From: Linderina pennispora
Taxonomy: Eukaryota; Kickxellomycota; Kickxellomycetes; Kickxellales; Kickxellaceae
Direction of reading: 5' to 3'
DNA length: 64,000 bases
NCBI RefSeq assembly: GCF_002104995.1
Contig: NW_024468271.1
Span: forward strand, 1-64,000
The notes under the pieces were generated by a model. The model did not search any database. It worked only from the letters and a program-made list of their open reading frames with translations, and was not told where the DNA came from. Each line of letters starts with the position of its first letter. Position 1 is the first letter of the stretch. The position numbers and the translations under genes were made by a program. This document shows, piece after piece, positions 8,841 to 54,896 of this stretch.

Positions 8841-9527
8841 CTACCGTGGACATGAGTGAAGAGCGCTGACTAGCTGCAGGACATCGTTCACAGAGAACTT
8901 GGCCGCGTTCTCGTCAACCATGGCAACTCTGATGTTCTGGGAAGGGTCGATAATGAATATGCTGTTCTGCGCCTGCCCACTGTGTGGGCACAGTACGCCA
9001 AAGCTGCAACGACACCTGGACGGGTGCGATCCTGCCAGCATCGGTAGTGCGATTGGACCAATGCCGCCATTGATACGCGCCTGCTTCTGCCAACCACCAT
9101 GTGCATACTCCTGAGTCTGTCGAGCACACAAGCACACTGCACCCCATCTGCCGAAAGGAATCGATGTGCTCGCTGTACTGCGCAATAGTTGCCGCATTCA
9201 TCGGAGATTAAAGTCGCCAGAGTAGAATACAATCACCAGATATTGCCCGGCAAAATCCGACAGCGAGACCGTGCCCCTGTGTTCACCTGGCAGAACGGCT
9301 GGTACACTATCAAAGGCAGGTGCCGCCTGTCGTATGTATATGTCCTCAGCATGTGTAGGCTGACCCGGCTCCGGTGCATTGGCAGTAATGGGTGCGGAGA
9401 GGGCGCTGTCGGCCATTGCTACTGCGTCCCCGACGTCAGCTTGGCGTTGGCGCTTCACTGCATTATCGGGCTCTGCGGCTATGTCGGGCTGGCGCTTTCG
9501 CGGTGCATGAGCGGCAAATGAGGACAT
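8841..9527 (-). CDS. Peroxiredoxin-like (AhpC/TSA fold) protein, frameshifted
   Basis: The N-terminus (MSSFAAHAPRKRQP) has two basic clusters that could act as a nuclear signal. A thioredoxin-fold peroxiredoxin body follows: RQAAPAFDS, VSLSDFAGQYLVIVFYSGDF, then AATIAQYSEHIDSF, SVLVCSTDS, NGGIGPIALPMLA and NSIFIIDPSQNIRVA. It ends LVSALHSCPR. The order and spacing match peroxiredoxins. At the usual peroxidatic-cysteine position (FVCPTE in the family) no Cys is visible; the frame that continues the fold reads PMNAATI. A frameshift lies exactly there, so the loss is not certain. Two or three further indels are needed. The first 60 or so codons lie inside the left arm of the inverted repeat, and a truncated copy is at 42972-43155. 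Confidence 0.68.
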
Positions 9528-9891
9528 GGCGAATTATAAAAGTACAGGTATGCACCGGTTGGGCTAATGCGAGGACGAGCGAAGAGGAGAGGCACGAGCC
9601 AGTGCTACCCACAAGAGGAAAGTTGTTTAGGCATAGTGGGATCGCTGCGACTGATGATCAGCATCGCGCTCGATGATTGAGCTGACGTCTATGCCAGCTC
9701 GAGAGCCAAGAATGCTGGCCCAAATGCGGTGGCTACTGCTGCTGCCAGTCCCACCCCTGCTACTACTGCCACTAGCCTGCCCAGCAGTGGTCTATAAGAC
9801 CAGAGCAGCCTGCTTGGTGCAGCACCGGATGCAGCCCATCCTGTCCAGTATCCCCGCCCTTTTGCTCGTTTTCACATAGAATTGCCCAGCC

Positions 9892-11187
9892 ATGTTTGTG
9901 CCCAGGACAACCAGCTCACGATACCGCCGCGCCATCCTCAAATACCTCCCAACGCTCGTAATCGGCATCCTGGCAGGGTACATTGCCGGCACACGGAACC
10001 TGACTCTGCAGGAAATCAGCCAGATAAAGTACGAGCTGTCGCAGCCGGACGCCCCAGCCTGCGTGTGCGCCAGTCGATCTCGCCCACAACACTGCCGAGG
10101 AGGCAGAGCAGATCTACGACGACTACGACGCCGATGAGGCGAGGACCATGCCAGCGAACAAGAAATCCTCGACCAGTACCACCCCCACGGCCAGAAGCCG
10201 GTCAAGGCTGCGCTGGTCGCACTGGTGCGCAACACCGACCTGCTCGGCATGCGGCAGACGATCCGGCAGATCGAGGACCGCTTCAACTCGCGCTTCAACT
10301 ACCCATACATATTCCTCAACGATGTGCCGTTCACAGAGGAGTTCAAGGCAGGCGTCCGCATCCTGACCAGCGCCAACGTGTCGTTTGGCGAGCTCGACAG
10401 CGAGAGCTGGGGCATGCCTGAGTGGATCGACCGCGAGCGCTTTGAGGTGGTAAAGAGGACTGCGCGCTACCCGCACGGCGGCAGCGACAGCTACCGCAAG
10501 ATGTGTCGGTTCCAGAGCGGGTTCATCCACAAGCACCCGCTGCTGGCCGACCTCGAGTTCTACTGGCGCATCGAGCCCGACGTCGAGTTCTTCTGCGACC
10601 AGGAGTACGACCCGTTCGTGTACATGAAGGAGAACGGGCTCAAGTACGGCTGGGTCATTGGCATGACCGAGTTCATGGACACGGTGGCGACGCTGTGGAA
10701 CACGACCATGGGCTTTATCGCCGAGCACCCAGGCATGGTGAGCCCCGCCAACCTGAAGCGCTGGCTGCTGGACGATGCCGGCAACTACAACGGCTGCCAC
10801 TTCTGGACAAACTTTGAGATCGTCGACCTGTCGTTCTACCGGTCGCCCGAGTACGAGGCATACTTCCAGCATCTGGATCGCGCGGGCGGGTTCTTCTACG
10901 AGCGGTGGGGCGATGCGCCGGTGCATTCGATTGCTGCAGCCCTGTTCCTCAACGCCTCGCAGACGCACTGGTTCGAGGACATCGGATATTTCCACCCGGC
11001 GGTGGCAAAGTGTCCGTCGGGCTCAAACATTCGCAGCAAGTGCGTGTGCGATCCGCAGCGCTCCTTTGTCGAGAAGAGCTACTGCATTGTGCGCTACAAG
11101 GAGTCGAAGCAGATGGTGCTGGACCCAGAGGCGACCGAGCCTGTTCACACGGGACCTGTGTACATGGCGGTGCCGGTGGTGGGCTAG
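9892..11187 (+). CDS. GT15 (KTR/KRE2-type) alpha-1,2-mannosyltransferase, left copy with two indels
   Basis: Golgi type II membrane glycosyltransferase that adds alpha-1,2-mannose to O- and N-linked glycans. The same gene is intact at 41314-42609. This copy has the short cytoplasmic tail and the membrane anchor (YLPTLVIGILAGYIAGT). It differs from the right copy by one extra base near 10051 and one missing base near 10138. Between them the frame is shifted and meets a TGA at 10135-10137. After the second indel the original frame resumes, and the remaining 320 residues are identical to the right copy, with only silent differences noticed. It is therefore either a recently broken copy or an intact gene with two sequencing errors in the stem region; I favour the latter. 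A TATAAG element lies about 100 bp upstream, near 9793. Confidence 0.85.
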
Positions 11188-11753
11188 AATGGACGGCGGC
11201 CGTGCTAATTGTTCCACTGACCACAAATAAAAAGACGCTTGACACTGGGTCCTATTACCACCGCAGGCTGGTTGTCGACGGCATATCATGCGCAGCGGCG
11301 GAAGCGGCGCACATTGTCTGTGCGGTGGCTAATTGATGCTGGCGGTTTATGACTGTCGCGCCCAGCGCAATAATGAAGGCACGGCAGCGTTGGTTCGTGC
11401 GAGGCAAGCAGACCTTGGTCCAATCCGGCAATCCAGCCATTCCAGAAACCGCGTGCAGCAGATGCAGATACGCATCCGCATTCTATCGCACTGGCAGTTC
11501 ATGCTGGCGCAAGCCTTGGCCAAACAGAGCCCCAGGCAGGCAGGCAGGCAGGCTTGGGAGCCAGACAGCCGCGCAACGAGGTGCAAGAAAAACAGGGATT
11601 CCAGCCGACACCAAGCACACAGCCACGAAAAGAAAGCCAGCAGCCCTACCCTCCCCCGTCCCTCCTCCTGCCGCTGTGCATGCTGCAGACTCCAGAGCTG
11701 CTGCTCTCTTCTCTCTTTGCCCTTTAGCTTTCTCGACTTTTTGACTCATCAGC

Positions 11754-11873
11754 ATGGCTATCGACGCTACCAGGAACCCCGCCATGTCGCTTGCACGCGA
11801 TCTCCGGCCAAACACGACCAAGATAATTACACCGTTGCCTGCTCCTCTCGATATTGTTGCAGCAGCTGTGTAA
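11754..11873 (+). other. 39-codon open frame at the inner end of the left repeat arm
   Basis: A short frame beginning MAIDATRNPAMSLARD, preceded by a long pyrimidine tract that resembles a fungal 5' leader. It ends in TAA exactly where similarity to the other arm stops. The matching frame in the right arm (40747-40628) has the same length and differs at four residues. Its stop overlaps a donor-like GTAAGA, so it could instead be a first exon. I noticed about four replacement and two silent changes between the copies, which does not suggest protein constraint. Coding status is uncertain. Confidence 0.25.
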
Positions 11874-12112
11874 GAAAGCCTGCTTTTATACCATGAGCGA
11901 CATCCTTGCTTTCAAAGAGTTGTAGTGTACATAGTCTGCTGGTGAACCATTCTATATGCCATAGCACGCTAGTTGAAAATATATATGTTGGAAATATTCA
12001 ACCCATCATTCAGCTCTGCTCTATCAAAGTGCCCAATCCCAGAATACCAGCCAGCCGCATTGGGTAATGCACGCCATATCTCTATTTCGCCGCGGCAGTC
12101 CCATCCCAGACT

Positions 12113-40502: not shown

Positions 40503-40627
40503 CTTATGCATATAGGCCTGTGAAATAAATATTAATGTGGACACCATGCTGTGTCAACCAAGAATTACAAGTACAACTATTGCAGATATGGCCATCCATG
40601 AAGTGCTGCTGAAAGAGGCGGCTAGTC

Positions 40628-40747
40628 CTACACAGCTGGTGCAACAATATCGAGAGGAGCAGGCAGCGGTGTAATTATCTTGGTCATGTTTGGCTGGGGG
40701 TCGCGTGCAAGCGACATGGCGGGGTTCCTGGTAGCGTCGATAGCCAT
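40628..40747 (-). other. 39-codon open frame at the inner end of the right repeat arm
   Basis: Counterpart of 11754-11873, same length, ending in TAG where the arms cease to match. It differs from the left copy at four residues. Not convincingly coding. Confidence 0.2.
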
Positions 40748-41313
40748 GCTGATGAGTCAAAAAGTCGAGAAAGTTAAAGGGCAAAGAGAGAAGAGAGCAG
40801 CAGCCCTGGAGTCTGCAGCATGCACAGCGGCAGGAGGAGGGACGGGGGAGGGTAGGGCTGCTGGCTTTCTTTTCGTGGCTGTGTGCTTGGTGTCGGCTGG
40901 AATCCCTGTTTTTCTTGCACCTCGTTGCGCGGCTGTCTGGCTCCCAAGCCTGCCTGCCTGCCTGCCTGGGGCTCTGTTTGGCCAAGGCTTGCGCCAGCAT
41001 GAACTGCCAGTGTGATAGAATGCGGATGCGTATCTGCATCTGCTGCACGCGGTTTCTGGAATGGCTGGATTGCCGGATTGGACCAAGGTCTGCTTGCCTC
41101 GCACGACCCAACGCTGCCGTGCCTTCATTATTGCGCTGGGCGCGACAGTCATAAACCGCCAGCATCAATTAGCCACCGCACAGACAATGTGCGCCGCTTC
41201 CGCCGCTGCGCATGATATGCCGTCGACAACCAGCCTGCGGTGGTAATAGGACCCAGTGCCAAGCGTCTTTTTATTTGTGGTCAGTGGAACAATTAGCACG
41301 GCCGCCGTCCATT

Positions 41314-42609
41314 CTAGCCCACCACCGGCACCGCCATGTACACAGGTCCCGTGTGAACAGGCTCGGTCGCCTCTGGGTCCAGCACCATCTGCTTCGACTC
41401 CTTGTAGCGCACAATGCAGTAGCTCTTCTCGACAAAGGAGCGCTGCGGATCGCACACGCACTTGCTGCGAATGTTTGAGCCCGACGGACACTTTGCCACC
41501 GCCGGGTGGAAATATCCGATGTCCTCGAACCAGTGCGTCTGCGAGGCGTTGAGGAACAGGGCTGCAGCAATCGAATGCACCGGCGCATCGCCCCACCGCT
41601 CGTAGAAGAACCCGCCCGCGCGATCCAGATGCTGGAAGTACGCCTCGTACTCGGGCGACCGGTAGAACGACAGGTCGACGATCTCAAAGTTTGTCCAGAA
41701 GTGGCAGCCGTTGTAGTTGCCGGCATCGTCCAGCAGCCAGCGCTTCAGGTTGGCGGGGCTCACCATGCCTGGGTGCTCGGCGATAAAGCCCATGGTCGTG
41801 TTCCACAGCGTCGCCACCGTGTCCATGAACTCGGTCATGCCAATAACCCAGCCGTACTTGAGCCCGTTCTCCTTCATGTACACGAACGGGTCGTACTCCT
41901 GGTCGCAGAAGAACTCGACGTCGGGCTCGATGCGCCAGTAGAACTCGAGGTCGGCCAGCAGCGGGTGCTTGTGGATGAACCCGCTCTGGAACCGACACAT
42001 CTTGCGGTAGCTGTCGCTGCCGCCGTGCGGGTAGCGCGCAGTCCTCTTTACCACCTCAAAGCGCTCGCGGTCGATCCACTCAGGCATGCCCCAGCTCTCG
42101 CTGTCGAGCTCGCCAAACGACACGTTGGCGCTGGTCAGGATGCGGACGCCTGCCTTGAACTCCTCTGTGAACGGCACATCGTTGAGGAATATGTATGGGT
42201 AGTTGAAGCGCGAGTTGAAGCGGTCCTCGATCTGCCGGATCGTCTGCCGCATGCCGAGCAGGTCGGTGTTGCGCACCAGTGCGACCAGCGCAGCCTTGAC
42301 CGGCTTCTGGCCGTGGGGGTGGTACTGGTCGAGGATTTCTTGTTCGCTGGCATGGTCCTCGCCCTCATCGGCGTCGTAGTCGTCGTAGATCTGCTCTGCC
42401 TCCTCGGCAGTGTTGTGGGCGAGATCGACTGGCGCACACGCAGGCTGGGGTGCCGGCTGCGACAGCTCGTACTTTATCTGGCTGATTTCCTGCAGAGTCA
42501 GGTTCCGTGTGCCAGCAATGTACCCTGCCAGGATGCCGATTACGAGTGTTGGGAGGTATTTGAGGATGGCGCGGCGGTATCGTGAGCTGGTTGTCCTGGG
42601 CACAAACAT
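41314..42609 (-). CDS. GT15 (KTR/KRE2-type) alpha-1,2-mannosyltransferase, intact right copy
   Basis: Golgi type II membrane enzyme transferring mannose in alpha-1,2 linkage onto protein glycans, important for cell-wall mannoproteins. Complete 431-residue frame: cytoplasmic tail with Arg/Lys, one anchor helix (YLPTLVIGILAGYIAGT, about residues 18-34), an acidic stem (YDDYDADEGEDH), then the catalytic domain from about residue 100. GT15 landmarks are PYIFLNDVPF, YRKMCRFQSGFI, YWRIEPDVEFFC, NYNGCHFWTNFEI, GGFFYERWGDAPVHSIA and DIGYFHP. The WGDAPVHS block is the family's best-conserved region. It is the intact partner of the copy at 9892-11187, whose catalytic part is identical. Confidence 0.96.
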   Translation of the reverse strand: MFVPRTTSSRYRRAILKYLPTLVIGILAGYIAGTRNLTLQEISQIKYELSQPAPQPACAPVDLAHNTAEEAEQIYDDYDADEGEDHASEQEILDQYHPHGQKPVKAALVALVRNTDLLGMRQTIRQIEDRFNSRFNYPYIFLNDVPFTEEFKAGVRILTSANVSFGELDSESWGMPEWIDRERFEVVKRTARYPHGGSDSYRKMCRFQSGFIHKHPLLADLEFYWRIEPDVEFFCDQEYDPFVYMKENGLKYGWVIGMTEFMDTVATLWNTTMGFIAEHPGMVSPANLKRWLLDDAGNYNGCHFWTNFEIVDLSFYRSPEYEAYFQHLDRAGGFFYERWGDAPVHSIAAALFLNASQTHWFEDIGYFHPAVAKCPSGSNIRSKCVCDPQRSFVEKSYCIVRYKESKQMVLDPEATEPVHTGPVYMAVPVVG

Positions 42610-42971
42610 GGCTGGGCAATTCTATGTGAAAACGAGCAAAAGGGCGGGGATACTGGACAGATGGGCTGCATCCGGTGCTGCACCAAGCAGGCTGCTCTGG
42701 TCTTATAGACCACTGCTGGGCAGGCTAGTGGCAGTAGTAGCAGGGGTGGGCTGGCGGCAGCAGTAGCCACCGCATTTGGGCCAGCATTCTTGGCTCTCGA
42801 GCTGGCATAGACGTCAGCTCAATCATCGAGCGCGATGCTGATCATCAGTCGCAGCGATCCCACTATGCCTAAACAACTTTCCTCTTGCGGGCAGCACTGG
42901 CTCGTGCCTCTCCTCTTCGCTCGTCCTCGCATTAGCCCAACCGGTGCATACCTGTACTTTTATAATTCGCC

Positions 42972-43155
42972 ATGTCCTCATTTGCCGCTCATGCACCGCG
43001 AAAGCGCCAGCCCGACATAGCCGCAGAGCCCGATAATGCAGTGAAGCGCCAACGCCAAGCTGACGTCGGGGACGCAGTAGCAATGGCCGACAGCGCCCTC
43101 TCCGCACCCATTACTGCCAATGCACCGGAGCCGGGTCAGCCTGCACATGCCGATG
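42972..43155 (+). pseudogene. Truncated 5' fragment of the peroxiredoxin-like gene
   Basis: The first 57 or so codons repeat those of the gene at 9527-8841 (MSSFAAHAPRKRQP to PEPGQP). After this, similarity ends and the sequence becomes unrelated AT-rich DNA. The whole thioredoxin-fold part is missing. The frame continues by chance to 43466 without any peroxiredoxin motif. This is a duplication remnant, and it marks the outer breakpoint of the right arm. Confidence 0.88.
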
Positions 43156-45267
43156 GTATATGTGTATGGCAGATCGTACGTGGTTGGTATTGTCACACGA
43201 AATGTGATATACAGACTAGTTGCATCTTTTATCAGTGTGACACAATATATTTTCCTGCACCCTGTTATACCAGCTGTCCCGCACTCGCGATTCAAGCCAG
43301 TCATTGCTGGTCAGGCATGGAGGCTGAAACAGGTTCATCGGTGCGGATTGCTCGCGGCCGATACAGAAACAGACTAGATAGCTTGTTGCATGGCATTAAA
43401 GCGATACACGAATCCTTTGCTGAGCCAGGCCAAAAGTTTAAAGAACCTACTCTTGGTGATAGGTAGGTCAGGAATGTGGCTAGTGCTGACATTTCTGCTT
43501 TGGCTCGCTATTGCGGACAGCAGTTGGGTGCTCTGTGTGTGGTAAGATCGAGATCGAGCAGGTGAGATGTGCCCTCTTGCAGTGCATCATGACCTGCTTG
43601 CAAAATCATTCGGTTGGTCGAGTATAGGAGGCTCTGGTGTTCTGCAGTGGCTCTGCCTTGCTATATGTTTTGAGTGAGTCGTCGCCACTGCACTCAGGTT
43701 TCTGATGCACAGCTGTGGCCTGGGCTCAACGCCAGGGTGTATTGCGGTCGGTGACCACACGGATTTGGATTTGGGTGTTGAATCAAGTATTAAAAACGAA
43801 AGAAATATTGTGTTCTGCTTGAAAAACTTCATCGGACTCACGGGTGTGTATTTTATATGGCTCTACTAGGCCTTACCCAGTGCTCAGCAGAGCTCTACTC
43901 GCTGGGATAGTCCTGGAATTTATCATGGTTCTTTGGCAAGACATTTCTCCTGCCAACATGTGTGTATTTCATTTCCTAAATTACTTTTTCATGGAGATTC
44001 ACCATGCTGTACCCTCAGCCAGCGTACTGGATCAGCTGCCATTTTCTCCACATTTGCCAAAATAATATATGCTTCGTCCGAAAGCAGTGTTATCATTCAG
44101 TTACTCTGCACTACGGAACACACCCTCTTAGTATTATACATGAATCAATATGAAATCCCAAGGTGAACAGAAGTGCATCTGATGGGGGTGTTGGCCCACT
44201 GGTCAACAGTTTTCATAAAATACGAATGGAACGTGGCTACCATTAGAACTAGGCCCAAAGGCATATGAGGCATATACCACATGTCCTACTAAAAGCCTGC
44301 TAGCCTTAATGTGAGCACACCTCTATCGGAACCAAACACTGCATGTCTCAAATTGAGGTGAGGACTGCTGATACCTGTAGCCTACTCTGCTCTGCATTGC
44401 GCACTCTGCCCAGGCATATAATATCCCTTGTACAGGTTCTTGATGGTGGTCATTTCGAGCGCCCAAAGCCGTCTGGTGCTAGCATAACGTGAAAAATGAA
44501 CGTGTGTGCGAGAGAGGGCCTGTGTGAGAAAGCAAAGTACTGTGTGCTTGCAAGACGAGTCACGCATTCCTGTGGTGGGGCTCAGAGAAGCGTGAATCGA
44601 TTTAGCCAATCAGAAGCGCTCTTGCAGACAGATGGACACCTTTAGACCATCAAATCTTACAGAGATGCGACTGGCTCATATCATGACTGACAACAAGAAA
44701 TTGCCAGACACCAGGTAAAACCGCATACTATTATATAAATGGGTGTCTTCAAGAGAGACCTACTGTTGAGGATCCTTGCCGCTTGCATATAGCAATTTAC
44801 TTCTCAAGTAAGTTAGGGTCTACTTCTGCTGCGACGAACCATTATATACCAAGTCACAATAATGGCTCAGCGTATCAGCGTATTTCGTCTTGCCCTCAAA
44901 TGGTAGGGGTATGCTGATTTCTAGCGGTCACATTGGTTGGCACCGAGTAGGCGGGATGCCATCTAATAATTCGACTAGTCAGATTGCTTAGAGATGTCAG
45001 CATCACTGCCTGACATGGCGATGGCTGCAGCAAGCTGGGCAATCCGTCCCCAAATCGCGCAGTCTTTCGACAAAGAAACTGCAATGCTAATCCACTATTC
45101 CACGACATGCAGTGGCGCCATTGGCGCTGAGAGTAGTCATTTTTTCTTTTACCTGGAAGCATACCCTAGTTGCAGGGAAATGCGCACAGTGATGCGCCTT
45201 GCAACGATGCTGGTGCTTTGTGAGTACCGTTGGGAATGTGTCAGCGGCTGCAGCTAGAGAAGTAGTC
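43156..45267. other. AT-rich gene desert
   Basis: About 2.1 kb from the right repeat breakpoint to the promoter of the P5 ATPase. It is AT-rich; open frames are all under 90 codons and have no family motifs. No transposon termini, tRNA or tandem array were recognised. Confidence 0.55.
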
Positions 45268-45440: not shown

Positions 45441-48400
45441 ATGCTCATATTCCTCGCAATTGCTATGGCCACCTCAGCCAAGCCCATGTGGAATACAGGT
45501 AAAGCACCAGCATCATTATGCGCAGACCAGGTGTGTTCAGTATAACAATGTATTAATAGCTACTTGACGTTGTAGTTAACAAGTATCAAGCCAATGGTGA
45601 TCTGTGCCCGGCGCAGCTGAACCAGAACAGACCCTGTCCCGCAATCTGTGTTTATGATCTCGCCGAATGTCCGCGTCCCGTGGCATGCCCTGATAACCAG
45701 GTGCTATGCCATGACGGCCTGTGTCATGACTCATGCACTGCCGACGTCAACATGGCTAACCCATGTACCTGCAGCTGGAGACCCAGTGCTGTGCCGGCAG
45801 CGGCAAGGGATCTGATTCCATGTCCATTGCTTAAAAATGTAACTATTTCGCAGCTGCACCTGTGGAACGCGACGAACCAGGTCCGGGATGCATGCAATGC
45901 CGATGCGCAGATCAGCAACCCAAGCAGCTTTGGTATCTGGGGAAACCAGTGGCCGCGGCGCACACGCGACGAGTCTGGCGTACGGGGCGTCTGGGTCCAG
46001 TGCCCGAAGGAGCCGCAGCTCATGTATACATTCCGCGAACCCATGTGGATAGGTGTGTTCACGATTCTGCTCGGTTACGTCGGATTGCTCGGTATCTGGT
46101 ATGCAGTAAAGCTACTCAGCGAGCATAATATAACTAGTGCACTCGACAGCAGGGCTAGTCCAAGCGATTCGGGGACCAACATCGACACCAAGGCACTGAA
46201 GGTTGCGGTTGGCGATCATCAGGGAGGCGAATTCAGCAGCAGCAATATTCGTCTGAGCGGCTATCGCAACAACGTCTTTGGCACAGCGATGAACTGGGGA
46301 CTGCTGGCGCTGGGCGTAGTTTGGCTCGGCTACCTATTGGCGCTTTCAGCAGATTTTTACGGCAGTGTACCGGGGATCGCTCCTGGAGCAGCCTGTGTTC
46401 TTTCGCTGGGGGACTGCACGCTCGGCAACCAGACATTCATCGTGATGTGGTGCCTGTATGTGTTCATGGTTGTGACCTGCAATGTGTTCCGTCACCGCCT
46501 GCGCAACTTCTTCCGCATCAAGACAGCACCAGCGGAGGGCACATTTGTATGTGTTGAGCGCAAGATTGACTCGCAGATAATGCTGCAAAACGAGCGCAGC
46601 TTCTTGGTCGACAATGTGCGCCGGGTAGCCAACATACTGAAGCACCATTTGGGCTGGACGTGGTCGGTAAATACATCGCGGCAGCACATTACCGCGCATG
46701 GCCGCAAGTACTTTACATACCAGTGCACTCGCTTTGTGCTTGACCAGACCACTGGCGAGTACACACCGTACACTTTTGATCTGGGAGCCACGAACAGCGA
46801 CCTTGTCGCCAACAGCCCTGGCCTATCGACGGCAGAGGCCGAGTATCGGATGGAACTGGTCGGGCAAAACTTCATTGAGGTGTCGGTTCCCAACTGGTTC
46901 TTTGCATTCCTGCGCGAGGTCACCAGCTTCATTGCATTGTACCAGCTTCTGGCGCTCTTGCTGTTCATCTATGACTTTTACTGGCAGGCGGGCATTGTCG
47001 ATCTGGGGATTGTGCTGCTGGCGATGACATTCAGTACTGTTGTGCGCAAGCTGTCTGAGGAGCGGCTCAAGCGCATGGCTGAGCAGGACGACCAAGTGAA
47101 TGTGCGTCGCAACGGCGACTGGGTGCAGGCATCGTCACGCGATCTTGTCCCAGGCGACGTCATCCAGCTAACTACCGGTATGCACATGTCATGCGACTGC
47201 ATTCTGATTTCTGGAAATGCTGTCGTCAACGAGTCATCGCTGACTGGCGAGCCCCTGCCCGTGCGCAAGTTCCCGCTGCGTAATGATGACACGCTGTTCA
47301 ACATTGAGGCCAACAAGAACAACCAGCTGTATGCTGGCACAGTGATCAGCCAGGCGCAGGCGATCGAGAAATCGGCTGGCGACATTTTGGCCGACCAACA
47401 CGTGCTTGGGCTGGTGCACCGCACCGGCACGGCTTCCGACAAGGGTAAGCTAGTGCGCAAGATCCTGTTCCCGCAGCCGCTGTCGTTTATTTTCAACGAG
47501 CAGCTCAAGGTAGTGTTCAGTATTCTGATCGTCTACGCGCTATTCTGCATGGGCATGGCGATATATCTGTACAAGGGGTCGCCGACAGCGGTGTTCTTTT
47601 ACGGAAACTTTTGCATGCTGCAGGCTGTATCGCCGCTACTGCCTGCTGGTCTGGTTGCAGGCCAGTCGATGGCGGCATATCGGCTGAAGAAGAAGCGCAT
47701 ATTCTGTGTCGACCCGCAGCGCATCATGATGGCCGGCAAAGTGCAGATATTCTGCTTCGACAAGACCGGCACTCTGACCAAGGAGGGTCTGGAATTCTAC
47801 GGCGGCCAGTGCGTGGATGGCAATGCCTTCCAGGGATTTGAGAATGCCTTGTCTAACACCAGTGTTTTGTTCCAGCAAGCCGTTGCCAGCTGCCATGCTG
47901 TTACCGATCTTAATGGGCAGCTGATCGGCAACCCTGTCGACATCGAGCAGTTCCGTGCGTCGAACTCTACGATCGATCCAGCCCCCAAGTACCTTGACAC
48001 TATCATCCCTGCTGGTGGCTCGTCCTTGGGCAAGCTGCATGTCGTCCGCCGCTTCGAGTTTGTCCATGCCCGTGCGTCGATGTCAGTCGTTGTCATGGAT
48101 GAGATGACTGGCAAACTGCATGTCTTTGTCAAGGGCTCGTTTGAGCGCATCAAGCAGGTCTCAAACAGCGCTTCCGTGCCATTGGATTATGACAGGACTT
48201 GTGCTGGGCTGGCGCGCGAGGGCTGCTATGTTCTGTCGATTGCGCACAAGCAGCTGGATGTGACTCTGGAAGGGCTCAAGGATCTGACCCAGGACAAGAT
48301 CGAGAGCAACTGCGATCTGATCGGCCTGCTGGTGTTCAAGAACCTGCTCAAGAACGACACATCTGATGCTATTGCTGAGCTCAAGCACGGGTCCACTCGC

Positions 48401-49771
48401 ACGGTCATGGTCACCGGTGACACTGCGCTTACTGGCGTGTACATTGCGAGGCAGTGCGGCATGGTGCCAGCCAACAGCAAGGTCCTGCTTGGCGACATGG
48501 ACAAGAAAACGCATATGCTGGTGTGGACTGACGTCGATACTGACGAGGAGGTGGCCGACATTCGACCTTTATTGACCGAGCTTGGCAGCGACGGATATCC
48601 GACCACAGAGCTAGCCCTGACCAGCGCTGCCTTCCAGCACCTGGAATCGACCGGCGGACTGGCAGAAATTCTGCTCAACACGCGCATTTTTGCGCGCATG
48701 AAGCCCAACGACAAGGTGCGGTGCGTGCAGCAGCACATGGCCCACGGTATCACGGCTATGTGTGGTGACGGTGGCAACGACTGCGGGGCATTGCGAGCGG
48801 CCCATGTTGGTCTGGCACTGTCGGATGCCGAGGCATCGATTGTATCGCCGTTCTCGTCTAGCAACCGGTCAGTGCACTCGTGTGTAGAGCTCTTGCTCCA
48901 GGGCAGAGCCGGCCTGGCTAGCAGCTTCAGCAACTATCGCGCACTGATTCTGTATGGCACCACGATGACAATGACCAAGCTGGTGAGTTTTTATTTCGCG
49001 CTGAGCATGTCGCAGCCCATCTGGATGATAATCGATGCCCTGGTGGCTACCAGCATGGCCATCACGGTCACGTTCCTGCCACCGGCCAAGAGGCTCTCGC
49101 CGTTCCGCCCTACGGCACGGATATTGGGCCCCGAGATCATGTCGTCAGTTATTGGTGTCGTTGTCATCAACTGGGTGTTTATTGTGGGCGCGTGGGTGTG
49201 GCTATTCAGGCAGCCGTGGTTCCGGTGCCACGAGTTTGACGCATCAAACACGAACGTGCTGAAATGGTGGCTGCTGGGTGACAACTACGAGGCGGCCATG
49301 ATGACATACCTGATCATGTACATGTTCATCAACAACGGATTCCTGGTCAACTACGGGTATGTGCACCGGAAGCCGTGGTTCCACAACCCAAGCTTGATAG
49401 CGGTGTGGGCGGGGCTAATTATCATGATTTCGTATGCGCAGCTGGCACCGCCCAGCAGGCTGTCGTGTACGTTCCGGCTCAACTGCGGCGACCCAGACAA
49501 GCTGGTCGGGATGGGATATGGGCGGCCAGGGTGGGAGATCGAAAAGTACAATGCGGTGGATGGGCACAACATCTTGCCTTCTGATTTCAAGTGGAAGCTG
49601 TGGGTGTATTCGATCGGCAATGTGGTGGCAACCAATGCGTGGCAGACTGTGGTTGTTTACGGGCCGGTGCGCACATGGCTCCGCAGGAAGCGCCCGCTGC
49701 AGGAGGCTCAAGCTCAAGCTCTGAGGGATATTTTTTTCTCACGTCATGCATTCATGACGCAAACCAAATAA
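45441..49771 (+). CDS. P5-type (P5B-like) transport ATPase with a Cys-rich N-terminal luminal domain
   Basis: Large P-type ATPase of the ATP13A2/Ypk9 group, acting on an endomembrane. Exon 1 ends at 45498; an intron (45499-45575, donor GTAAAG, acceptor TAG) joins exactly in frame to exon 2. The ATG at 45441 gives a signal-peptide-like start (MLIFLAIAMATSAKP) and 1417 residues; ATG 45372 would add 23. After it lie about 110 residues with at least 12 Cys (RPCPAIC, ECPRPVAC and others), then a membrane helix. Catalytic motifs are present: actuator LTGEPLP, phosphorylation motif CFDKTGTLT, MVTGD, and CGDGGNDCGAL. The M4 motif reads SPLLP (47630-47644) where P5B pumps usually have PPALP. Ten or so helices are visible. 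There are no frameshifts. Substrate unknown; polyamines are the family precedent. Confidence 0.9.
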
Positions 49772-49830: not shown

Positions 49831-49840
49831 AATCTCCCTA

Positions 49841-49884
49841 TTCCCACCCCCCAAATTCCCACCCCCCAAATTCCCACCCCCCCA
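49841..49884. repeat. Three tandem ATTCCCACCCCCCAA units; G-rich on the minus strand
   Basis: Three imperfect copies of a 15-bp unit directly upstream of the peptidase ATG. The minus strand has repeated GGGGGG and GGG runs that fit a G-quadruplex pattern. The repeat probably lies in the 5' leader or core promoter. Confidence 0.75.
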
Positions 49885-49900
49885 CCACTCTTTGTCTCTT

Positions 49901-51621
49901 ATGTTTTCCACACTTTCGAATTTCAACCCCCTTGCGCTTGGGCTACAGCCACTCCGAAAGACATTCGCACTCGTCACGTCCGTCCTCATGGTCACCAGCA
50001 ACCTCTCCACTGCGTCCTCCAGCGGGCTCACGGTCAAGCAGCGTCTGTCCAACTACAAGGCCGACGGAGCTGCGCGCCGACCTCTCGCACCTGACCGAGG
50101 GCGACAAGCGCGCACTGGTGAAGCTGGCAGATCGTCTCGGACCTGCTCAACGCTGCGTACTTTAAGCAGATCTGGGCAGGCGCTCCGGCGATGCGGCAGA
50201 AGCTGCAAGCAGGCAAAGCAGATAGCGAGGAGGCAAAAGATCCTGGCGACACTGTTCGAGCTGTTCCGTGGGCCGTGGGACCGCAGCCTCGACAACGAGG
50301 TGTTTGTGCCGGGCGCTGCAGCCAAGCCAATCACGGCCAATGTGTATCCGGAAGACATGGATAAGAAGGAGTTTGAACTGTGGCTCGGAACGCTTAGCGA
50401 AGAAGACAAGGCGCGCGCCAAGGGGTTCTACGATGTCGTGAAAAGAGATAAAAAGTGCAGGGCTGGTGCTCAGTAGATATGCGGACGAGTACCGTGAGTT
50501 CCTGGCGCCGGCGGCCAGGCTGATGCAGGAGGCAAGCACGCTGGTCAGCGATAAGAGCTTTGGCGAGTTCCTGCGCATGCGCGGCAAGGCGTTCCTGAGC
50601 AACAAGGTACCTGGACTCGGAGGTGTCGTGGCTGAAAATCAACCACACCAGCGCGCTGGAGGCCGCTGTGGGGCCCTACGAGACGTACGAGGACGAGCTG
50701 TTCTCGTCCAAGGCGTTCTTCGAGTCAATGGTGCATGTGCGCGACTTTGCTGCTACGCAGCTGCTGGACAAGTTCACCAGCAGCCTGGAGCTGGTCGAGA
50801 AGAACCTGCCGATCCCGGACTCGTACCGCAACAAGGAGCTGGTGGCGCCGCCAATCGTGGTGGTCAACCAGGTGTACTATGGCGGCGACACGGCGGTGCC
50901 GATGACGGCGGCGTATAATCTGCCCAACGACGAGGAGGCGATTGAGCGCGCGGGCTCCAAGCTGACCATGATCAAGAACGTGCAGGAGGGCAAGGTGGCC
51001 AGCGTGCTGCGGCCGATTGCTCAGGAGGTGCTGAGCAAGGCGGATCTGGATTACGTGACATTCCCAGCCTTCTTCACCCACGTGCTCATGCACGAGGTCG
51101 CGCACTCGAACGGCCCGCACCGCGACACCAGCGGGGCGACAGTGCGCAGCCGGCTGCAGGAGCTGCACTCGGCGTTCGAGGAGGCCAAGGCGGACATCAC
51201 GGGCTTGTTTGCCGCGCGGCTGCTGGTGGACCGCGGCGTCGTTGATGACATTTCGATGCGCGAGTTCTACACCACGTATCTGGCATCGGCATTCCGGTCG
51301 GTGCGCTTCGGACTGGCGGAGGCCCATGGGCTCGGCCAGGCCATGCAGCTGAGCTTCTTGCTGGAAAAGGGCGGGTTTGTGTATTCGGCGGGCAAGTTTG
51401 CGGTTGACATGGAGAAGATCGGCGCGGCGGTGGAGGAGCTGACGCATGAGATCATGATGATCCAGGGCAATGGCGACAAGGAGCGCGCCGTGGCGTTCAG
51501 GGAAAAGTACGGTGTGCTGGCGCCTGAGGTCAAGCAGGCGCTGGAGAACCTGAAGGGCGTGCCCATTGACATCGCACCGATCTGGGTAGACATCGAGAAT
51601 CTGCGCAGGCAGTTTAGCTAA
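49901..51621 (+). CDS. M49-like (dipeptidyl-peptidase III-related) zinc metallopeptidase (frameshifted)
   Basis: Putative zinc-dependent peptidase or hydrolase. The catalytic helix carries HEVAH (51091-51105) within FFTHVLMHEVAHSNGPH, and the third ligand motif EEAKAD is at 51178-51195, about 29 residues later. This arrangement is that of the M49-like group with a short HExxH, rather than classical DPP III, which has HELLGH and EECRAE. Upstream blocks include FRGPWDRSLDNE, the SRYADEYREFLAPAA segment and PYETYEDELF. Downstream are EAHGLGQAMQLSFLLEKGGF and the IAPIWVDIENL end. The N-terminus has a hydrophobic stretch (TFALVTSVLMVTSNLSTAS) that could be a signal or anchor. Five frame changes are needed, near 50056, 50130, 50240, 50450 and 50615; the C-terminal 330 residues are intact. 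Substrate unknown. Confidence 0.75.
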
Positions 51622-51671: not shown

Positions 51672-54600
51672 TTACCACGCCAGTCGGGCGACGAGGCTGG
51701 TCGGGTATCGCCGCACGATCATCTTGCGTGTCTCGTCGAGCACAATCAGGAACAGAGCGAACGGGATCGGGAGGAAGAAGAACTCGACCGGGATGCGGCC
51801 GGTCAAGAAGATGCGGTTGAACCAGCCGACCTCATTGACAAGCAGCGCGACGGCAATGGAGATTGGGATTGCAATAAGCAGCTGCGGGTTGCGCTTGGTG
51901 CCGCGGAATGGGTTCTGCTGAAAGAACCCCAGGGTGCGTGTGCGCGCAACAAACATGTTGCCCCACTGCATCACCACCAGGGTAAAGAAATGGGCGCTGC
52001 CTGCCACCCGCACGATCTCCGAGAGCTCCGCCTGCGACTTGCCCATGTACCCGTCGGTCCACTTGTTGAACGCCAGGAACACGTCCTTGGGCGCAATTCC
52101 GGCCCGCAGATATATGCACAAAAAGAACATGAAGTGTCCGCTGAACGTCTGCCACAGCCCGATGAACCCGTACGCCTGCAGGAAAAACCGCACGTTGACC
52201 AGGCCCTCGCGCTTCGGGTTGCGTGGCGGATGCAGAAGCAGGTCGCTCTCGGGCTCCTCGTTGATCAGATTAATCGACGCCCAGACGTCAGTCACCGTGT
52301 TGATTACCAGCATCAGGAACGTCGACAGCGGGATGGGCAGGCCCAAAACGACATTAAGCAGCGATGGCACGATCTCGCTGAGGTTGGTCATCGGCAAGAG
52401 GTAAATGATGACCTTTTTCAGATTGACAAACACCAGCCGGCCGCACTCGATGGCCACGACGATCGACGAGAAGTTGTTGTCCAGCAGGACCATGTCGGCC
52501 GCCTCCTTTGGCCACCTCTGAGCCGTTGCCCATGGCCACAGCCACCTGAGCCGCGCGCATAGCCGGCAGATCGTTGACGTCATCGCCAGTCACCGCCACA
52601 TAGTGATCGCGTCTGGCCAACTCCTCGACCACCTGCAGTTTCTGCTCGGGCGTGATTCTTGCAAACACAATCTCCTCGTATGTCTCCATCACGTCCCAGT
52701 GCTCGCTGCGCAGCATCTTCAGCTCCGGCCCCGACACCACCAGCGAGTGCGAGCAGCGCTTCTCGCTACACATTGACGACTTGCATGAGCAGTGAGATGT
52801 GGATGAGGGCTGGTCCACCTGCCGCATTACATCGTCGATGGTGTCGGTTACCATGCCCGTGATGATGCGGCATTGCCGGGCCACCACCGCCGCTGTCGCC
52901 GCATAGTCGCCAGTCACCATGTAGACGCGCACACCCGCCGCCCGGAACGTATCGACCACGCCTGGGATTTCACGACGCGGCGGATCCACCATCCCCACCA
53001 GACCCACGCAGCACAGCCCCTGTTTCATGCACATCTGCGCTGCCTGGTACATGCGCGACGGGCTATCCTCAATGGCTGGCGAACGGATTCTCTGCTCCGT
53101 AGTCGCGGCGACACAGCATCAACACGCGCTCGCCCTGCTCGGCCCACGTTCTCTGTCGCTCCTGCATCTGCCTCCGCAGCTTGTCGGTCAGCTCGACAAT
53201 CTCGCCGCGGGAGTCCTGGATGGACGTGCAGTGCATCAGCAGTTCCTCGGGCGCCCCATTGAACCAGAACGAAGGGCGAACCATCCAGCGGCTTGCAGAC
53301 GGATAGCTGCCAGCGGTTGCGGATGTTGAAGGGGATCCGGAACAGGATCTGGTGCGTGGGTGGTTCCGGATGGATGTGCGCCGAGAACCGCAGAAGCGCT
53401 GCGTCGGTGGCATCGCCTATGGCCGGGCGCTCCAGCAATGGCTGAGTGTCTGAGGATTCCTCGAATTCGGCTGCATTGCAGAGTGCTGCGGATTCGTACA
53501 GCCGGGTGACCAGCGTTGAAGGGCAGATCGGAGCAGCTCCCCGACGGTCATTTCCTGGTCGGCCACAGCTACATGCACAACATTGACGCGGACGCTGCGT
53601 CAGGGTGCCGGTCTTTCTCGCAGCAAATGACCGAAACCGACCCGAGCGTCTCGACCGTGGTCAGGTTCTTGATCAGCACATTATGGCGCTGCATGCGCCG
53701 GGCAATCGCGGTCAAAGTCAGTGTCAACGAGATGGGCAGACTGCCCGGCACAAAGGTGACCAGGACGCCGACGCCATTGGCCAATGCGTCGGCTACGGAC
53801 ATGAACCCAGGGAAGGTCGTGCGCAGCCAGACCGCCCACAGGATGATGAACACGATGCCGACCACCAGGGACAGCGTCGTCAGGCCGTTCACCAGCCGGT
53901 GGACTTCGATCTCCAGAATCGACCGGTCGGGCTTCTTCAGTGTCATCATCTTGGCAATCCGCCCGATCACCGTGCGATCGCCTGTGGCCACCACCACGCC
54001 GGTACAGTTGCCCTGCGTCACATTTCGCCCCCTGCATCACCATGTTGCGAGTCTCCAGGTAGTTTGTGTTCGTGTAGTTCACCGTGCCGATGGTCGGGTC
54101 GGGTGCGCCTGATAGCGCCGAGCGGTCAAACATGGCGTCCATTGAGACATCCACTATACGCATGTCCGCTGGCGCCTTATCGCCCATTTGCAAATACACT
54201 ATATCCCCCTGCACCAAGTCAGCCGGGCTCAGCCGCCGCCATTCCCCATCGCGCAATGCCAGCGTCTCCGCGGGCAGCATCTCGGCAATCGAATCCATGG
54301 CACGTCTGGTCACCCATTCCTGCCATGCGCTGAACGACGCCTGTAGGATAATGACCAGAATGATCACTATGGCCATGGCCAGATTGCCGGCCTGCGGCGG
54401 GTTACCGATCGGCCGCCAGCACAGCCAAAAGACAATCATCGACACCCACAAGAACCGGTTGAAACCGCCGAAAAACCACCGCAAGAGGCGCTGCGGGATC
54501 CTGCGCGATGCGCGCGAAAACACATTCCGCCCTTGCTTCGCCACTCGCCTATCCACCGGCCTGCTTCTCCAGCCCCACGACCGGCGACGTGCTGAACCGA

Positions 54601-54896
54601 TTGTATATGTCGTTGACCGACACCAGATGGTAGTTTAGCGAGCGCAGCTGGTCGGCCACTTTGCGCAATGCCATCGCGCGCTGGTGTTCGTCCGACTGCC
54701 GCTGCAGGTGCGCCGACCGCAATGGCACCAGCTCGTTGAGGAGCTCGCGGATGACCATGCGCCAGTGGTGCGGCTCTGGCTGCACAGCAATCGAGGGCTC
54801 CGTCAGCTGGTACGAGAGCGTGCGGAATTCACTGGCTAGCCGCATGGTCGAGCGCCGGGCGAGCGGCGGACTTGAATCGACGATTTGAATCTCCAT
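51672..54896 (-). CDS. Type IIC-like (Na+/K+-ATPase alpha-related) P-type ATPase with degenerate motifs, frameshifted; candidate pseudo-pump
   Basis: The overall order matches animal-type Na+/K+ ATPase alpha: N-terminal domain, FGGFNRFLWVSMIVFW (M1), M2, actuator domain, GVVVATGDRTVIGRIA, M3-M4, P/N domains, KPLDGSPF nucleotide site, MVTGD, FARITPEQKLQVVEE, VLLDNNFSSIV, then M5-M10. Several key motifs are altered. The actuator TGES equivalent reads SGAP (54101-54112). The M4 PEGL equivalent reads PGSL (53734-53751). GDGVND reads GDDVND. In M6 the first acid of the DLGTD-like motif is Asn (INTVTD). At the phosphorylation site, after removing one apparent extra A near 53611, the sequence reads CEKTGTLT, Glu for the acceptor Asp. 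Around eight frame changes are needed overall. It may be a non-pumping homologue, a decaying gene, or a pump blurred by sequencing errors. The SGAP and PGSL sites lie in clean frame, so those losses are directly seen. Confidence 0.78.

Follow-up and report, generated by a model that had tools for sequence, protein, structure and literature searches.

P-type ATPases are defined by the formation of an aspartyl-phosphate, and replacement of the catalytic Asp by Glu is taken to stop phosphorylation. Described relatives of the protein considered here include the type IIC alpha subunits of animal Na+,K+- and H+,K+-ATPases, which provide both its best NCBIfam model and its best PDB matches. The fungal literature divides these pumps into types IIC and IIE/ACU (PMC1479386, PMC6651076). 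The names clash: the two pumps of Beauveria are IIC/NK in PMC7588218, and two ACU pumps are given for Beauveria in PMC6651076. Because of these conflicting names, we use the label fungal Na,K-ATPase-like. ACU pumps import K+ or Na+ (PMC6651076), and the beta-assembly motif is reported to be missing from fungal members (PMC9609216).

Pump-independent functions, argued from mutants, are discussed for Caenorhabditis elegans CATP-1 in PMC11631496, where an engineered Asp-to-Glu allele, D409E, is used as pump-impaired and the authors allow for partial activity. Mammalian ATP13A5 is reported in PMC5837089 to have shown no autophosphorylation in eight preparations. By these accounts, both proteins keep the catalytic Asp motif, whereas the fungal clade described below has replaced it in every sampled member. 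We found no description of a natural pseudo-pump clade in fungi in the open-licence papers examined.

Family placement, catalytic motifs and cation pocket

The window is a stretch of 64,000 nucleotides at the start of contig NW_024468271.1 of Linderina pennispora. Its pseudo-pump gene (Table 1) encodes about 1,070 amino acids if read through eight frame changes, and no introns were seen.

Table 1. Features of the pseudo-pump gene, with positions in the window
Feature	Position	Strand	Basis or occurrence
Whole pseudo-pump gene	51672..54896	-	Begins with ATG and closes with TAA; aligned across frames to the intact C1 paralogue
N-terminal MEIQ start, common to three canonical paralogues	54879..54896	-	
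Stretch with all eight frame changes	52506..54554	-	Frame-aware alignment
Actuator motif, TGES to SGAP	54095..54121	-	Glu lost in 32/33 orthologue clusters
M4 cation site, PEGL to PGSL; Thr for Ala four positions ahead of the missing Glu	53734..53760	-	
Phosphorylation motif, SDKTGT to CEKTGT, crossing a frame change	53598..53628	-	Intact in P0001
N-domain nucleotide pocket, PFNxRNRW ... GAPE	53243..53333	-	One frame change inside
Hinge, TGDGVND to TGDDVND (extra acid)	52561..52596	-	Asp 25, Glu 8 of 33
M5 cation site, MTNLSE, versus AGSxSE in fungal relatives	52371..52397	-	Thr, Asn, Glu each 33/33
M6 cation site, INTVTD, versus ICxxTD	52278..52310	-	Asn 32/32, Asp 32/32; P0041 ends earlier
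M8 QWGN, common to canonical relatives	51957..51977	-	

Pfam domains of P-type ATPases were matched in pieces of the window gene, and the AlphaFold2 model of one orthologue, P0008, aligned to Na,K- and H,K-ATPases, has the P-type ATPase fold with A, P and N domains and a ten-helix M domain. Identity to the best PDB matches is 30–34% over about 900–950 residues. In both pseudo and canonical models, E2-type structures ranked highest by Z and the lowest rmsd was to an E1 structure, 8ijm (4.2 and 4.7), so that the models do not separate the two forms; a conformational state was tried as a reading of the models and dropped, since pseudo and canonical models behave alike. The proposed Na+/K+-ATPase-like, type IIC identity held in that TIGR01106 (type IIC) is the nearest NCBIfam model, but not as a formal assignment: three pseudo members score 603.0, 603.6 and 622.6 bits against a cut-off of 946.1, and three canonical fungal relatives, at 804.3, 747.2 and 660.5 bits, likewise fall below it. 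The pseudo-pump belongs to a fungal branch that may be the ACU (type IIE) group, a kinship drawn only from the name 'K, P-type ATPase' given to proteins of smut fungi on that branch. Two of these smut proteins, P0176 (Ustilago trichophora) and P0167 (Melanopsichium), have the M5/M6 pattern of the canonical sister, and the pseudo clade differs from ACU pumps in lacking their catalytic residues.

The read-through window protein was used for a protein search of which the best 120 of 1,184 relatives were examined. All homology searches together listed 248 proteins, of which P0122, a long double protein, was excluded from the alignment and 214 are relatives outside the clade. Among the matches listed, the orthologous group comprises P0001–P0032 and P0041, that is, 33 clusters with 150 member sequences. 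Four genera (Linderina, Martensiomyces, Kickxella and Coemansia) account for the 32 named clusters, and the 32 clusters outside the window's own species are 56–67% identical to the window protein. Residues are given in Na,K-ATPase numbering; the alignment shows the correspondence for M4, M5 and M6.

The phosphorylated Asp, D369, is Glu in all 33 clusters. The actuator Glu, E183, is retained in P0006 alone, and the M4 Glu, E327, is absent from every cluster (Gly in 32, Ser in one). The Gly of GDGVND, G711, has become an acid throughout, with both Asp residues of that motif kept in 33/33. The SGAP, PGSL and GDDVND changes reported by the sequence-only reading lie in unbroken stretches of the window gene and were confirmed, as was CEKTGT, which that reading had obtained by correcting one base; SGAP, PGSL and Glu proved to be shared by the orthologues, at the level of loss of the TGES Glu (32/33), loss of the M4 Glu (33/33) and the catalytic Glu itself (33/33). 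These replacements are genuine and do not reflect decay. A search among the 33 clusters for orthologues in which TGES, DKTGT and PEGL are canonical found none, which supports the pseudo-pump proposal. Among the 214 listed non-clade relatives, 213 have a residue at the position, and every one of these has D369, E183 and G711. Of the same 213, 201 retain E327, and the 12 relatives without it (three with Asp instead) retain Asp at 369; loss of the M4 Glu alone is therefore not diagnostic. Compared with animal alpha subunits, the pseudo clade has other residues at the catalytic Asp, the TGES Glu, the M4 Glu and the first of the M6 Asp positions. A Mycoemilia scoparia protein of 1,288 amino acids, P0188, carries CCDKTGT but has Asn where the M4 Glu would be and Val at the Asp of DPPR; it may have diverged from the canonical pump independently and less far.

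Much of the remaining head is retained. D586, D612, K691, D710, D714, K370 and the nucleotide-pocket Phe, F475, are kept in 33/33 clusters, T371 in 32/33 and T610 in 31/33; residue 713 is Asn in 28/33 and Pro in 5/33. The KGAPE Lys, K501, is kept in 32/33 and lost only in Linderina, and a Lys of the nucleotide pocket (PFNxRNRW ... GAPE) is Arg in 33/33. In terms of superfamily motifs, the clade thus lacks the DKTGT Asp, the TGES Glu (32/33) and GDGxND and retains the nucleotide-pocket Phe and the KGAPE Lys. With a catalytic residue lost across a clade under constraint, these proteins are candidate pseudoenzymes. The invariance of the Glu, where drift would give a mixture, together with the fixed second hinge acid and the preserved Mg/phosphate residues, would also suit a pump that is still active through a glutamyl-phosphate or through a nucleophile shifted to the new hinge acid. 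This is very improbable, given that 32 of the 33 clusters have lost the TGES Glu on which dephosphorylation depends and that the A domain is relaxed (see below); moreover, we know of no Glu nucleophile in the HAD superfamily.

The cation site is rebuilt rather than lost, and forms a remodelled, invariant M4/M5/M6 pocket. At residues 775, 776, 779, 804 and 808 the clade invariably carries Thr, Asn, Glu, Asn and Asp, whereas the 212 listed relatives with residues there have, in the same order, Gly; Ser, Thr or Cys; Glu; Cys (210) or Ser (2); and Asp. The M6 Asn noticed earlier is indeed present, but the residue it replaces is Cys, not the first acid, since the listed relatives carry Cys or Ser at 804. 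Residue 323 is Thr for Ala in 33/33 clusters, and seven of the 16 fixed-but-different sites among 954 columns examined fall in M3–M6.

The closest canonical proteins are the Kickxellales Na,K-ATPase-like pumps, namely P0035 and tandem paralogues of the same genome on contig C1, together with P0033, P0034, P0036–P0040, P0042, P0043, P0076, P0117 and P0121. They form the sister clade of the pseudo clade, with P0121 next outside, and those among the matches listed are 46–53% identical to the window protein. They share its fold and, if complete, a similar length, and the genome's own paralogues have the same MEIQ start. Unlike the pseudo clade, every canonical pump that covers the segment in question has retained DKTGT, TGE and GDG, and these pumps have G-S in M5 and Cys in M6 in place of T-N and Asn. 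Three intact Na,K-ATPase-like paralogues lie in tandem on C1 at about 1452253–1475500 (L029, L030, L031); their ORFs are uninterrupted and all keep ICSDKTGT, GDGVND and TGES, with PEGL in M4 of two and Val for that Glu in the third. P0035 is at zero tree distance from a C1 paralogue. The copy of one of the tandem paralogues on contig C211 carries a frame break.

Frame changes in the window copy

Alignment to the intact paralogue on C1 places the frame changes near 54554, 54022, 53613, 53588, 53520, 53255, 53074 and 52506, positions that are the aligner's choice; seven are net +1 and one is net -1. The in-frame pieces have a GC3 of 0.73–0.87, the best frame having been used for two pieces with the register off by one. 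A second L. pennispora assembly contains an unbroken partial orthologue ORF, EC988_004367, of 903 amino acids, which starts at about residue 169, without the first 168 or so, and is identical to the window protein in 884 of 904 columns.

Insertion errors left over from long-read sequencing, and not inactivation of the gene, most likely account for the frame changes. Contig C83, taken as a haplotig, is 97% identical beside the gene to C139, the contig that holds the window. Across a single 6.7-kb alignment the two differ in 38 one-base indels, of which 31 adjoin an identical base; C211 and C1 show six, six and seven in alignments of 4.9, 8.3 and 8.2 kb, respectively. Two observations count against this explanation, however: 26 of the 38 one-base differences are extra bases in C83, not in C139, and the adjoining 2.1-kb alignment of the two contigs has only one such indel. 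The extra bases of C139 are found mostly from 50 kb onward, in a peptidase M49 gene. C83 stops at window position 51210, short of the pseudo-pump gene, so that there is no second copy for comparison and error inside the gene itself is what we infer. A second allele, sought by a DNA search of the assembly and via C83, was not found.

The eight frame changes, together with the missing second allele, are what a decaying pseudogene with chance motif losses would display. That reading is scarcely credible for the window copy, seven of whose eight frame changes are insertions, when an unbroken orthologue exists in the same species, orthologues in four genera share the motifs, and one-base indels also separate overlapping contigs beside the gene. 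For the clade it was rejected on the shared motifs and the unbroken ORF. The earlier argument against random decay is borne out by unbroken ORFs, by the level of identity maintained in 32 clusters and by preserved constraint.

Other features of the region were recorded. The peptidase M49 (DPP III-like) gene at 49831–51621 (+) apparently occupies at least three frames, with Pfam matching one piece, and has one-base differences to C83, which again points to indel errors beyond 50 kb. At 45560–49771 (+) lies an unbroken ORF of 1,403 amino acids for a P-type ATPase that is P5-like by look and keeps FDKTGT and TGEP; other parts of the genome hold related sequences with DNA identities of 79%, 78% and 69%, and its C83 copy is frame-broken where C139 reads through. 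A 2.5-kb inverted repeat (9338–11875 and 40626–43161), 98.9% identical, possibly represents two copies of a mobile element.

Origin of the clade and selective constraint

The pseudo clade has a single origin. In a tree of 70 rows, 34 of them from the clade including the window, it occupies one side of one branch (stem 0.94, SH-aLRT 100). Its union with the canonical Kickxellaceae pumps has an SH-aLRT of 99, with Mycoemilia outside both, which would place the duplication after the split from Mycoemilia. An origin before Mycoemilia was rejected weakly (AU p 0.0466) on a reduced tree of 53 of the 70 rows, 17 having been removed by hand, in part because their branches were long. In six species pairs from four species, the pseudo-pump evolved at 0.92 to 1.72 times the rate of its sister pump.

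Domains were compared in four species in which both forms could be matched by name. Mean identity in M3–M4 is higher in the pseudo-pumps than in the sister pumps (0.864 versus 0.778; 95% interval of the difference 0.006 to 0.165). It is lower in M1–M2 (0.685 versus 0.856), in the A domain (0.639 versus 0.783) and in the N domain (0.548 versus 0.644), all three being relaxed in these four species. M5–M6 shows no clear difference (0.882 versus 0.929) and is not more conserved. The excess of M3–M6 over the rest is 0.116 with a permutation share of 0.0004, for a grouping picked after a first look at the domains. Of 149 sites conserved at 98% or more in 150 relatives, the clade keeps 116 at 90% or more and 13 at less than 10%, the latter being mostly catalytic and cation sites.

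Within the clade, 44% of M3–M4 and 54% of M5–M6 columns are invariant, versus 22% in the N domain and 29% in the A domain. This concentration of conservation in M3–M6, together with the invariant pocket Thr, Asn, Glu, Asn and Asp, is what a passive cation conduit would require. Having neither a phosphorylation cycle nor the gate formed by the M4 Glu, such a protein would let alkali cations leak through the M4/M5/M6 pocket, working as a channel or uniporter under the control of nucleotide or membrane voltage. But the predicted fold is that of an ordinary pump with no pore shown, and a simple channel would not need conserved head domains; we regard a conduit of this kind as unlikely.

Sites with gained constraint were counted in two ways. 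Against the canonical Kickxellales pumps there are 17, scattered over the protein; against all 214 listed relatives there are 71, of which 43 fall in M3–M4 and M7–M10 and most are common to the canonical Kickxellales pumps. A new interface was considered from these sites, and no patch is claimed, the 17 being scattered. The same counts bear on the idea that the protein serves as a partner subunit, pairing with a canonical paralogue and tuning its activity or location. Both forms are present in the four species matched by name (species chosen for having both, so that no frequency of co-occurrence follows), and the duplicate is predicted to have retained the whole fold, as a partner might. The 17 gained sites are, however, few and scattered, and the larger set of 71 is mostly not specific to the clade, which makes a partner role quite unlikely.

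A proposed regulator derived from a pump

The reading that we consider probable is that the protein is a conserved, non-phosphorylating paralogue of fungal Na,K-ATPase-like pumps, which arose by one duplication in the Kickxellales and regulates through occupancy, in response to cations and nucleotides. A single duplication would have produced the pseudo-pump beside its canonical sister. With Glu in place of Asp, the protein would be unable to form an aspartyl-phosphate and would thus not run an E1/E2 transport cycle. The membrane pocket would still bind a cation and the head would probably bind Mg-nucleotide, a claim weakened by the loss of the KGAPE Lys in Linderina and by Pro at residue 713 in five of the 33 clusters. 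Through such occupancy, the protein may regulate alkali-cation homeostasis, and the Glu together with the extra hinge acid may fix the head in a phosphate-mimicking state.

A more specific version can be put forward only tentatively. In it, the pseudo-pump family would have swapped its phosphorylation site for a fixed two-acid mimic, made up of the catalytic-site Glu and the hinge Asp or Glu, and rebuilt its cation site. The outcome would be a sensor or conduit gated by cations and nucleotides, beside a sister that stayed a pump. As to the roles suggested by the sequence-only reading, a conserved and remodelled cation pocket appears less suited to a plain scaffold than to a sensor or conduit; a scramblase role has no support, as nothing points to lipid scrambling.

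In the Kickxellales, some proteins that carry a 'calcium ATPase' or 'Na/K ATPase' annotation (P0002, P0008, P0029) are probably not pumps. A natural non-pumping paralogue beside an intact sister offers a clean comparison of what the scaffold does alone, and a lineage with a fixed Glu and a conserved cation pathway would show that a pump scaffold can be useful without pumping.
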